Origin: an uncultured Treponema sp.
GTDB taxonomy: Bacteria; Spirochaetota; Spirochaetia; Treponematales; Treponemataceae
Direction of reading: 5' to 3'
Assembly (NCBI GenBank): GCA_946186185.1
Contig: CAMHMJ010000006.1
Location: 1 to 64,000 of the forward strand
Length of the DNA stretch: 64,000 bases
Made by a program: the position numbers and the translations under genes. Position 1 is the first letter of the stretch; every line of letters starts with the position of its first letter. The notes below the pieces were generated by a model. The model was not told where the DNA came from. It saw only the letters and a program-made list of their open reading frames with translations, and ran no database searches. Positions 19,925 to 29,061 of this stretch are shown here, piece by piece.

Positions 19925-19936
19925 GGAGAAATGGAT

Positions 19937-20254
19937 ATGGAAAAGAAATTCAAAATCCGTAAAGACGATACAGTACAGGTTCTTGCTGGTAAGGACAAGG
20001 GCAAGAGAGGAACTGTTGTTCGCGTTCTTACTAAAAAAGATGCAGTAATTGTATCTGGTGTAAACATTGTTAAAAAAGCAATGAGAAAACGAAGTGAGCA
20101 GGATCAGGGTGGAATCGTTGAAATCGAAGCTCCACTCAACATTTCAAATGTTGGAATCGTATGTAAAAAATGCGGTGGTCCTGTAAAAATTGGTTACAAG
20201 ATTGACGGGGACAAGAAAGTTCGCGTTTGTCGTAAATGTGGAGATATACTGTAA
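19937..20254 (+). CDS. rplX: 50S ribosomal protein L24
   Basis: L24 starts 50S assembly. The 105 residues contain the KOW motif ([16 protein letters not shown]) and a C-terminal zinc-ribbon-like pair CKKCG...CRKCG. I prefer ATG 19937 because AGGAG (19924-19928) is 8 nt away; the ATG at 19931 is only 2 nt from it. The stop overlaps the rplE start by one base. Confidence 0.95.
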
Positions 20255-26022: not shown

Positions 26023-27078
26023 ATGGCTCGCAAAAATCTGCTTAAAGGTTTTAAGAAACCTAAGGGTATTACATTTGAGCATCTTGAGACTAATCCGAAT
26101 TACGGAAAGTTTACAGCTAGCCCATTTGAAACAGGATTTGGTACAACTGTAGGTAATACATTGCGCCGCGTTTTGCTTTCTTCTATTCAGGGATACGCAG
26201 TTACTTCTATTCGTGTTACTTCCTATGATGCTGACGGTGTTCCTCACGTTATTTCCAGTGAATTTGAAGCAATTCCAAATGTTTCTGAAGATACTCTGGA
26301 AATAATCAATAGTTTGAAACAGATCCGATTGCGACTCCTTAATGACGTAGAGCAGGAAACTATACTTTACGAATTTGAAGGTCCAGGAGAGGTGAAGAGT
26401 CAGGATCTTGCCAGAGAAAATCAGGTAGAAGTAATGACCAAGGATATGCTTCTTTTCACTATGATGGAAGGAGCTAAACTTGAGATTGAAATGCAGATTG
26501 ATCTGGGAAGAGGCTATGTTCCAGCTGAAGTAAATGAGCACTATATTGAAGTATTGGGAACTATCCCGATCGATGCAATATTTACTCCAGTTCCAAAGGT
26601 AAAATATTCGATTGAACCATGCCGCGTTGGTCAGAGAAATGACTACGATAAGCTCGTTCTTGAGATTTGGACTGACGGAACAATTTCACCAGAAAATGCA
26701 TTAGGTGAAGCTGCGAAAATTGCAAGAGATCATTTTTCAATTTTTGTAAACTTTAATGATGATGATGTCATCGGTAGTGATGAAAGCGATGAAGACGATG
26801 CTAGAATTAAGGAAATCCTTAATACTCCAGTTGAAGAACTTGAGCTTTCAGTTCGCTCTTCGAACTGCTTGAAGAATGCGAATATCCACACAATCGGTGA
26901 ATTGACAAAGAAGACAGAAGATGACCTTGCCAAAACAAGAAACTTTGGTAAGAAGAGCCTTGCAGAAATCAAGGAAAAACTTCAGGAATGGCGTCTTACA
27001 CTCGGTATGACAGATTACAGTCATTTGAAGAGTGCTGTTAATTTAACAAAGCAGAAGGAAGAAACAGATGAATCATAG
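26023..27078 (+). CDS. rpoA: DNA-directed RNA polymerase subunit alpha
   Basis: RpoA dimerises to start RNA polymerase assembly. The 351 residues have the N-terminal assembly domain ([19 protein letters not shown]), an acidic linker (about residues 245-265) and the C-terminal DNA/activator-binding domain with [12 protein letters not shown], which keeps the Arg equivalent to E. coli R265, and [20 protein letters not shown] upstream is the ribosome-binding site. Its end overlaps the rplQ start by 11 nt. Confidence 0.98.
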
Positions 27079-27517
27079 AAATGGTTTTAATCCGCTTTCA
27101 AGAACAACAGCTCATCGTCGTGCAATGTCACGTAACATGGTAACTTCACTCTTTAGATTTGAGAGAATTACAACTACTAAATCAAAGGCACTTGAAGTTA
27201 GAAAAGCTGCTGAAAAATTGATTACACGAAGCAAGGTTGATTCTGTACACAACCGCCGCGAAGCTGCGAAATTTATTCAGGATGAAAAAATCCTTAATAA
27301 ATTGTTTACAGAAATCGGTCCTCGTATGAAAGAAAGAAACGGTGGATACACACGCGTTCTTAAACTTGGTTATCGACAGGGCGATGCTGCTGATATGGTA
27401 ATTCTTGAGCTTGTAGATTATAAGCTTGATGCAGAAAATACTGCAGAAGAAGAACCAAAAGCAAAGGCAAAAAAGCCGGCTGCTAAAAAAGAAGCTGCTA
27501 AGGCAGATAAGGAGTAG
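27068..27517 (+). CDS. rplQ: 50S ribosomal protein L17 with Lys/Ala tail
   Basis: L17 lies near the tunnel exit. The core shows [18 protein letters not shown] and the C-terminal [20 protein letters not shown]. At 149 residues it is longer than the usual 115-130 because of a tail rich in Lys, Ala and Glu. The gene overlaps rpoA by 11 nt. A small zinc-ribbon gene follows 3 nt after the stop. Confidence 0.95.
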
Positions 27518-27520
27518 TTT

Positions 27521-27736
27521 ATGTCAAAGAACCATCGTGGATCTGGAATCCGAAGCTTGCCTAGTCATGGAAGAGGAACTTGTGCAATCTGCAAAAAAGA
27601 TAGCATCAAGGTTCTTTATGAACAGTCTGTTGATGGACAGACAATTAAAATCTGTAAGTACTGCAATGCAGCATTGAAAAACAAAGCAAAAGCTGCAAAG
27701 CCTGAGGCTGCTGCTGAAGCACCAGCTGCTGAGTAA
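27521..27736 (+). CDS. Small zinc-ribbon protein of unknown function, in the ribosomal operon
   Basis: I do not recognise a named family. The 71-residue product has a CxxC-20-CxxC zinc ribbon (Cys21, Cys24, Cys45, Cys48) after a basic Gly/Ser/Arg-rich N-terminus (NHRGSGIRSLPSHGRG). It ends in a low-complexity tail with AEAPAAE, very like the tail of L10 at 2691. It starts 3 nt after rplQ and is followed by the terminator, so it is the last gene of the alpha block. Size, basic charge, zinc ribbon and position suggest an accessory ribosomal or RNA-binding protein; this is inference. Confidence 0.8.
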   Translation: MSKNHRGSGIRSLPSHGRGTCAICKKDSIKVLYEQSVDGQTIKICKYCNAALKNKAKAAKPEAAAEAPAAE

Positions 27737-27757
27737 TAAGTCTTACTAAGGTTTGTT

Positions 27758-27790
27758 AACCGCTCCACTATTGCTGGGGCGGTTTTTTTT
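27758..27790 (+). terminator. Terminator of the ribosomal/rpoA block
   Basis: AACCGCTCCA (27758-27767) pairs with TGGGGCGGTT (27775-27784), one G-T wobble, followed by eight Ts. Confidence 0.9.
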
Positions 27791-27802
27791 ATTTTAATGT
27801 AA

Positions 27803-27831
27803 TTTACTAAATTTCTTAAATTGGATATTAT
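27803..27831 (+). promoter_or_regulatory. Promoter of the branched-chain amino-acid binding lipoprotein
   Basis: TTTACT (27803-27808), a 17-nt spacer and TATTAT (27826-27831). This would give a leader of about 90 nt before the strong GGAGG at 27918-27922. Confidence 0.55.
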
Positions 27832-27927
27832 AAACTTAATCATGTGATTTGCTTTTACACTTTTCACAGAGGAAAATCAAAGGCTTGTGACCGGATAAAT
27901 CCGTGCGCATATATTTTGGAGGATATT

Positions 27928-29061
27928 ATGAAAAAGATTTTTGGTCTTGCATGTGCTTCCCTTGCTCTTTTGGCATTTTCATGTTCAAAAACTGAAGGTG
28001 ACACTGTAAAAATCGGTGGAATTGCACCTCTTTCTGGAGCTGTTGCAGTTTATGGTGTTGAATGTAAAAACGGAATTGACCTTGCTGTTGAAGAAATCAA
28101 CGCTGCCGGTGGTATCAATGGAAAGAAAATTGAGTTCGTTTGCGAAGACGATGAAGGCTCTCCAGATAAGACTGTAAACGCTTTCAAAAAGCTTACAACA
28201 AAAGATGGTGTTAAAATCATCATTGGTTCATTGACAAGTGGCTGTACACAGGCTATTACAACATTGAGCCAGGCTGGTAAAGTTTTGCAGATTGCTCCTG
28301 CAGCTACTGCTTATTCAATTACTGACGCAGGAAATTACATTTTCCGTGCCTGCTTTATCGATCCTTTCCAGGGAACAGTAGGTGGAAAATTTGCTGCAAA
28401 TAACCTTGGCTGCAAAAAGGCAGGAATCCTTTACGATATCGGAAACGATTATTCAGTAGGTCTTACAGACAACTTCAAGAAAGCTTTTGCTGAAAATGGA
28501 GGCGAAGTAGTTGCAGTTGAATCTTACGCAACTGGTGACAAGGATTTTAATGCACAGCTTACAAAGATTAAGAGCGCTAATCCGGACATCGTTTACCTTC
28601 CTGATTACTACGGAACTGTAGCTTTGATTGCAAAACAGCTTCGTGCACAGGGAATCAACTGCCCGATCGTTGGTGCAGACGGATGGGACGGTCTTACAGA
28701 CAATGCCGGTGATGAAGTTTTGAACGGATATTATTCAAACCACTATGCAGCTGACTCTACAGAAGAAGCTGTTCAGAAGTTTGTTACTTCATTCAATGAC
28801 AAATATGGAAAGGCTCCAAACTCATTTGCTGCTCTCGGATACGATGCAGTTTATATGCTGAAGGATGCTATTGTAAAAGCAGGAACAACAGATGTTTCAA
28901 AGGTACGCGATGCATTTGAAGCAACTGACGGTGATTATGTAACAGGTCATTTGACTTTCGATGCTCACAGAGATCCTGTAAAGTCTGCAGTAATGCTTGA
29001 GCTTGTAAAGGGTGCTGACGGAAAAATGACAACTGCTTACGAAGCAACTGTAAATCCGTAA
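27928..29061 (+). CDS. Periplasmic Leu/Ile/Val-type ABC substrate-binding lipoprotein
   Basis: A type I periplasmic binding protein (LivK/LivJ class, Peripla_BP_6) that would capture branched-chain amino acids or related ligands. The 377 residues start with a lipoprotein signal peptide (MKKIFGLACASLALLAFSC, lipid-bearing Cys19). The mature protein has the family's VKIGGIAPLSGAVAVYG, NGIDLAVEEINAAGG and SCTQAITTLSQ-like GCTQAITT elements. GGAGG fixes the start; an upstream in-frame start at 27844 is rejected. No permease or ATPase gene is adjacent. A terminator follows, so it is monocistronic. Confidence 0.88.
   Translation: MKKIFGLACASLALLAFSCSKTEGDTVKIGGIAPLSGAVAVYGVECKNGIDLAVEEINAAGGINGKKIEFVCEDDEGSPDKTVNAFKKLTTKDGVKIIIGSLTSGCTQAITTLSQAGKVLQIAPAATAYSITDAGNYIFRACFIDPFQGTVGGKFAANNLGCKKAGILYDIGNDYSVGLTDNFKKAFAENGGEVVAVESYATGDKDFNAQLTKIKSANPDIVYLPDYYGTVALIAKQLRAQGINCPIVGADGWDGLTDNAGDEVLNGYYSNHYAADSTEEAVQKFVTSFNDKYGKAPNSFAALGYDAVYMLKDAIVKAGTTDVSKVRDAFEATDGDYVTGHLTFDAHRDPVKSAVMLELVKGADGKMTTAYEATVNP

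Follow-up and report, generated by a model that had tools for sequence, protein, structure and literature searches.

A candidate lineage-specific ribosomal protein of Spirochaetia encoded directly after rplQ in Treponema

Bacterial ribosomal proteins are still being discovered, and the ribosome of Borrelia added two that annotation had missed, bS22 and bL38, of which bS22 is a very Lys/Arg-rich helix (61% K/R) (PMC10618245). Some ribosomal proteins exist in both a zinc and a non-zinc form (PMC3087516, PMC5912738). In Treponema pallidum, the ribosomal operon was drawn as genes 0188-0213, and all 27 genes were expressed at higher levels in rabbits (PMC8525777). TP0213 is L17, with a mass of 19 kDa, and TP0214, with a mass of 7 kDa, showed the highest NSAF (19.6) in the Top 50 table of the T. 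pallidum proteome (PMC5015957), a ranking repeated in PMC9200625.

The window analyzed here is a stretch of 64,000 nucleotides from an uncultured Treponema sp. (GenBank assembly GCA_946186185.1, contig CAMHMJ010000006.1), and all features of it given below lie on the forward strand. At 27521-27736 it encodes a basic protein of 71 aa with four cysteines (Cys4), named Z here, whose gene starts with ATG at 27521 and ends with TAA at 27734-27736. The 5' neighbor is rplQ (bL17; 27068-27517), whose stop codon (27515-27517) lies 3 nt before the start of Z. A Shine-Dalgarno sequence, AAGGAG (27509-27514), overlaps the last rplQ codons and ends 6 nt ahead of the ATG. An intrinsic-terminator-like hairpin followed by a T run was found at 27758-27784, and a terminator scan of 26900-28000 gave 2 sites versus a mean of 0.9 in shuffled sequence. 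This hairpin marks the likely end of the cluster, so Z is probably the final gene of the ribosomal-protein cluster. Compared with the nearest relative (L127), residues 1-57 gave a dN of 0.022 and a dS of 0.63 (dN/dS about 0.04), and of 39 genomes from its relatives (own genome included), 37 contained a match to Z. Considering the low dN relative to dS and these homologues, Z is a real gene. The description of Z in an earlier note made from the sequence (71 residues, 3 nt after rplQ, basic, CxxC-20-CxxC, and an AEAPAAE end) was confirmed in every point.

The four cysteines (C21, C24, C45, and C48) are arranged as CAIC-20-CKYC. The pI of Z is 9.5, and that of its core (residues 1-57), which contains 12 K+R, is 9.8. 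Residues 1-20 (27521-27580) form an N-terminal segment that is conserved and basic (MSKxHRGxGIR...GRG), and the first CxxC (C21-C24; 27581-27592), a predicted zinc knuckle, comes next. The AlphaFold2 model (overall pLDDT 84.7) contained short helices at residues 8-11 and 14-17, a predicted beta hairpin with strands 33-37 and 40-44 (27617-27652), and a helix at residues 46-58, whose start coincides with the second CxxC (C45-C48; 27653-27664). The Ala/Glu/Pro tail (residues 58-71; 27692-27733) was the least confident part, with a pLDDT of about 58-61. Z had been called a zinc ribbon; in the model the second CxxC opens a helix after the hairpin, a layout that we would name a treble-clef-like finger in preference to a plain ribbon. 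A Cys-less, T. pallidum-like Z was predicted with the same elements as the zinc form, a prediction that is not independent because the alignment mixed Cys and Cys-less forms. Searches of the PDB with Z returned no convincing match by sequence, and by fold the best Foldseek E-values (0.34 for the zinc form and 0.68 for the Cys-less form) were not significant. In the VIA fold comparison, run with the first model only, the Z score was at most 3.1. No solved chain was matched significantly by sequence or fold in the PDB; ribosomal chains appeared in the fold searches as weak rows, which are evidence neither way.

Among 294 genomes from across the phylum, 134 (own genome included) matched Z, and all 134 belonged to its own class, Spirochaetia; the 160 genomes without a match included at least 20 of the same class. 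In a collection of named genomes, 418 stretches matched and 395 of them encoded a relative. The best 80 were titled Treponema, Treponemataceae, Spirochaetaceae, Spirochaetales, Spirochaetia, or Spirochaetes, and the closest relatives among the matches listed were Treponema metagenome assemblies. None of the 8 Borreliaceae-like genomes (family f7) gave a credible match to a 73-row profile of Z at E-values up to 10; the best one (E 0.138) fell inside a 404-residue frame. The solved Borrelia ribosome is therefore uninformative on Z. The homologues read for the counts below were 114 distinct ones (L001-L116 without the duplicate loci L031 and L036) and those of 18 further genomes. One genome, G012, carried two copies on different contigs, 63% (C104:5825-6037) and 61% (C170:22299-22508) identical to Z, and may be a mixed metagenome bin.

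The family extends beyond spirochaetes, since an unannotated homologue of 62 aa was found in Paenibacillus cellulosilyticus, a member of the Bacillota (NZ_CP054613.1, a 2.7-Mb replicon; L366:4001-4189, reverse strand of the record). It aligned to residues 1-50 of Z, N-terminal segment included (tblastn E 2e-5; hhalign probability 98.9%). Its neighbors, judged by eye, were a zinc-type dehydrogenase and a regulator, and no ribosomal cluster was seen in the flanks read. This replicon was the sole plasmid record matching Z. Neither phage records searched with the core of a Z relative nor viral contigs searched with the Paenibacillus protein gave a match.

Alignment A2 comprised 73 of 81 non-redundant homologues, L003, L006, L012, L019, L038, L048, L053, and L060 being left out for long tails or as near-duplicates, and alignment A3 comprised 51. 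The core consensus (residues 1-57) was MSKxHRGxGIR...GRGxCPVC...K.LYE...G..xKICKxCxA, and M1, K3, R6, G7, C21, K30, and K46 were invariant across the 73 rows. The core pI was 9.5-11.1 at all 116 loci read, two of which are duplicates. In a sample of 17 of 18 fetched genomes plus the window, the mean pairwise identity of the core was 0.62 (18 sequences), compared with 0.64 for uL6, 0.65 for uL15, 0.66 for uL24, and 0.67 for bL17 from the same genomes, and its conservation was slightly below that of each of 16 comparison proteins. Z was retained even in a genome of 1.14 Mb (G079). Against Pfam and NCBIfam, Z of the window (P0001) gave weak matches alone, far under the cut-offs. For the other 72 members, only best E-values are given, without cut-offs: 4.4e-4 in Pfam (best 25 of 77 families listed) and 2.3e-5 in NCBIfam (best 25 of 26 families listed), scattered over unrelated, mostly zinc-finger, families. 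A PHROGs search with two proteins gave no useful match. Residues 1-57 of Z thus define a family that is unnamed in the libraries searched, and the view of Z as an undescribed small protein holds for Pfam, NCBIfam, and PHROGs.

We found that the gene neighborhood of Z differed between orders. In its own order, rplQ lay upstream on the same strand in all 94 genomes with Z that were read, at a distance of 40 nt or less in 86 of them. In other orders, rplQ was found at none of 20 loci, with about 2 kb upstream covered (230 nt at L101), and neighbors of at least 100 aa at 12 of these 20 loci, inspected by eye, included none of ribosomal appearance. That Z closes the ribosomal block was upheld, as it is the last cluster gene in its own order and the copy in the window is followed by the terminator-like hairpin. 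Like ribosomal proteins, Z is small, basic, conserved, and, in its own order only, encoded with ribosomal genes.

Four cysteines were present in Z of 125 of the 132 genomes read. In the remaining 7, Z kept C21 and the rest of the core, and C24, C45, and C48 were replaced by T, S, and G or A, respectively. These Cys-less forms occurred in three groups, namely four genomes of one genus (G079 included), two of family f17, and one of family f14, and the residues that took the place of the cysteines followed one pattern in all three groups (PVTG/PITG or PVTK, and xSKxG/A). The existence of zinc and non-zinc forms by lineage is a trait that Z has in common with ribosomal proteins, one that is common among them and not defining. 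The zinc tail of uL24 (rplX; 19931-20254 in the window, with its own CKKC...CRKC tail) was compared with the finger of Z. Its cysteines have been lost in many of the Spirochaetia genomes read, with the hairpin kept (L228-L245, L246-L275), more frequently than those of Z. All 7 genomes with Cys-less Z also had uL24 tails without the four-Cys motif, but so did many genomes with Cys-containing Z (G044, G151, G194, G222, G290, and G313, for example), so a specific coupling of Cys loss between Z and uL24 is unsupported. In the T. pallidum-like clade, S14 and L36 retained their cysteines and bL28 was Cys-containing; Cys-less bL28 was found in G212, G257, and G293. A Treponema genome, G313, carried two bL28 genes above the Pfam cut-off (C1:209658-209819 and C1:1800934-1801098).

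The tail of Z resembles that of L10 (rplJ; 2107-2691), which carries repeated AEAPAAE at 2653-2688 and, as the earlier note said, ends with it (terminus APAAEAPAAEAPAAE). From this likeness a common location or partner on the ribosome had been proposed. The AEAPAAE coding pattern occurred at 3 places in the 3.04-Mb assembly (estimated 93% complete), 2 in L10 and 1 in Z, and the exact heptamer is therefore rare in this genome. The reversed control gave 2 places for the shorter AEAPA pattern, against 12 in the assembly, of which two were in L10, one in Z, and one at the end of L9; at the other eight, no ribosomal protein end was recognized. L9 of the same genome (C39, L364:1000-1533) ends ...KKAEAPAEAEQNA, ...KKAEKKEEKKAEAPAEAEQNA, and a K/A tail closes L17, which places such tails on several unrelated ribosomal proteins here. 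In this genome, L9, L10, L17, and Z all bear low-complexity Ala/Lys/Glu tails: by composition the tail is to some extent shared among unrelated proteins, while as an exact heptamer it is not. The tail is not a family trait. By a simple composition rule, an Ala/Glu/Pro tail was present on Z in 44 of 46 homologues inside the genus of the window and in 12 of 68 outside it, 56 being untailed. The length of Z was 60 aa or less in 40 of 114 homologues, and AEAPAAE itself was present in 3 of the 114. Of 30 genomes compared, one yielded no L10; in the 29 with both proteins, the tails of L10 and Z were not associated, both being tailed in 10, Z only in 9, L10 only in 3, and neither in 7 (Fisher p 0.43). 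Counting the borderline G108 and G240, just under the L10 threshold, as tailed changed these numbers to 12, 7, 3, and 7 (p 0.13). In G004, G010, G014, G015, and G020, all of the same genus, Z was tailed, yet L10 ended in ...KKxAEGAN. The argument from a shared tail to a shared place on the ribosome is not supported by these results, and the Z tail is a lineage-specific low-complexity addition, mostly confined to the genus of the window and uninformative on a shared site. Neither adjacency to L17 nor the L10-like tail gives the site of Z on the ribosome.

The gene after rplQ in G079 encodes a protein of 7.0 kDa, and its rplQ product has a mass of 18.7 kDa. From gene order and masses, Z of G079 is probably TP0214 (TPANIC_0214) of T. 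pallidum, and the synteny seen here suggests that the T. pallidum ribosomal operon may include 0214. NSAF values such as that of TP0214 are biased toward tiny proteins. The TPANIC_0214 transcript was higher in rabbits than in vitro (log2 1.28; 830 vs 310 counts) and was among the 94 of 1063 genes significantly changed, although many non-ribosomal genes showed the same rise (PMC8525777). A newer label-free study did not identify TPANIC_0214 as highly abundant and called it a candidate antimicrobial peptide (AMP) (PMC10600179). In the passages on TP0214 read in open-licence papers, it is nowhere named ribosomal. By title, the open-licence literature searched contained no Treponema 70S cryo-EM structure and no novel spirochaete ribosomal protein matching Z.

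Based on the rplQ linkage in 94 of 94 genomes, the basic core, the low dN/dS, the retention in the 1.14-Mb genome, the zinc and non-zinc forms, and the NSAF and transcript data of TP0214, we read Z as a lineage-specific ribosomal protein of the class Spirochaetia, or a near-stoichiometric and permanently bound component of the ribosome, with a probability of roughly 0.55. The interpretation in the earlier note is thus partly supported: Z is an undescribed basic Cys4 protein whose gene closes the cluster and which probably acts at the ribosome, but its tail does not point to a partner there. In this proposal, Z would be translated right after L17 as the product of the last ribosomal-cluster gene in its own order. 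Its structural core would be a compact Cys4 finger of knuckle, hairpin, and helix. Contacts to rRNA would be made by the near-invariant MSKxHRG...GRG segment together with the basic hairpin, and the variable Ala/Glu/Pro tail, where present, would lie in solvent. Zinc would stabilize the finger without being required, much as known ribosomal proteins occur both with and without it. Binding to the ribosome, contact with rRNA, coordination of zinc, and membership of either subunit are putative properties of Z.

The main rival, possible though clearly less probable, is a ribosome-associated factor that binds transiently during assembly, hibernation, or translation and is not structural. Transient binding would account for co-location with ribosomal genes in one order together with tolerated loss in some lineages, and it agrees with the finding that Borreliaceae-like and some other genomes of the class gave no credible match, with the separation from rplQ outside the order, and with the proteome in which TPANIC_0214 was not reported as highly abundant (PMC10600179). 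Against it, Z matches no known enzyme family, the conserved basic N-terminal segment and the loss of cysteines with the rest kept look structural, and TP0214 had the top NSAF in another proteome (PMC5015957). It is unlikely that Z is a nucleoid-associated or general RNA/DNA-binding protein without a tie to the ribosome. Z is small, basic, and perhaps abundant, and it does not adjoin rplQ in other orders; the Lsr2 dimerization domain headed the Foldseek list for the Cys-less model (E 0.68) and the VIA list for the zinc form (Z score 3.1), although Foldseek placed it only at rank 10 for the zinc form (E 1.2). These fold matches were not significant, and RGR, an AT-hook-like tripeptide seen in 15 of 114 homologues, was missing in 99 of them and in Z of the window; the rplQ linkage in 94 of 94 own-order genomes also speaks against such a protein. 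A zinc store or zinc-sensing accessory protein is very improbable: four cysteines in 125 of 132 genomes would suit it, but seven genomes keep the core with three of the four replaced. We consider equally poor the prospects of a ClpX-type zinc-binding domain that stands alone and serves a protease or chaperone as its adaptor. For the zinc form, ClpG and ClpX entries led the Foldseek list (E 0.34 and 0.43), and two clpX models were weakly matched, one by 4 of 73 members (best E 0.024) and the other by 3 (best E 0.012), but these values do not reach significance, few parts of Z are as invariant as the basic N-terminal segment, and no Clp gene was recognized by eye at the 12 listed loci of other orders. 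The antimicrobial peptide suggested in the case of TPANIC_0214 (PMC10600179) is scarcely credible, since basic ribosomal-type proteins may score as such by composition, Z has no secretion signal evident by eye, and a housekeeping role is in keeping with its operon context and its conservation across the class.

If Z is the ribosomal protein proposed here, a T. pallidum protein of unknown function once reported as the most abundant would simply be a ribosomal protein, and a miniprotein filed as an antimicrobial-peptide candidate would be re-filed. As a named candidate, Z could be sought in any Treponema ribosome map. It would also be a marker for much of Spirochaetia that was not found in the Borrelia-like genomes tested. 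The fuller proposal, an unnamed Spirochaetia ribosomal protein present in Treponema (TP0214 included), replaced or lost in Borrelia, and existing in zinc and non-zinc forms, stands in our judgment at even odds.

Several known proteins were considered as identities for Z. It is not bL38: hhalign gave probabilities of 0.3% and 0.9%, and a separate bL38 homologue exists in its own genome (G000:C14:72872-73030) and in G079. The bL38 gene was found in a Borrelia-like genome, the query being identified via PDB 8fmw_Ai (E 3e-24), and bL38 homologues lay about 0.2 kb (G140) and 0.9 kb (G079) from bL28. A bL28 paralogue was rejected as well, with canonical bL28 encoded elsewhere in the same genome, a profile probability of 2%, and PF00830 (bL28) absent from the Pfam matches of Z at E-values of 5 or less. 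Identity with bS22 was rejected because Z has 12 K+R in its 57-residue core and a predicted finger, versus a very Lys/Arg-rich helix. As for uL24, PF17136 was absent from the Pfam matches of the window Z and was weakly matched by 6 of 73 members (best E 0.018). The hhalign probability was 54% against the single uL24 of the same genome and 17% against a 49-row uL24 alignment, equal to the 17% of uS14, and 20 column shuffles that kept the cysteines gave 0.1-1.5% against uL24. The resemblance is weak, and since uL24 and uS14 are resembled equally weakly, an origin of Z as a duplicate of the uL24 tail is not established.

Compared with the closest known systems, Z resembles the C-terminal zinc tail of uL24, a Cys4 finger with a basic hairpin from the same cluster whose cysteines were lost in several lineages. 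In this genome, however, the spacing of uL24 is 18 (Treponema type, CKKC-18-CRKC) versus 20 in Z, and the uL24 finger is the tail of a larger protein, whereas Z has its own conserved N-terminal segment. The zinc form of bL28 is likewise a small basic CxxC...CxxC ribosomal protein, and bL28 without these cysteines also occurs in the class. Borrelia bL38 (BB0162) is, like Z, a small spirochaete protein and was overlooked by annotation until a structure was available (PMC10618245); unlike Z, it lacks a Cys4 finger. TP0214, the probable T. pallidum orthologue of 7 kDa, follows L17 (TP0213) as Z follows rplQ, and differs from Z of the window in C24T, C45S, and C48G and in having no Ala/Glu/Pro tail.
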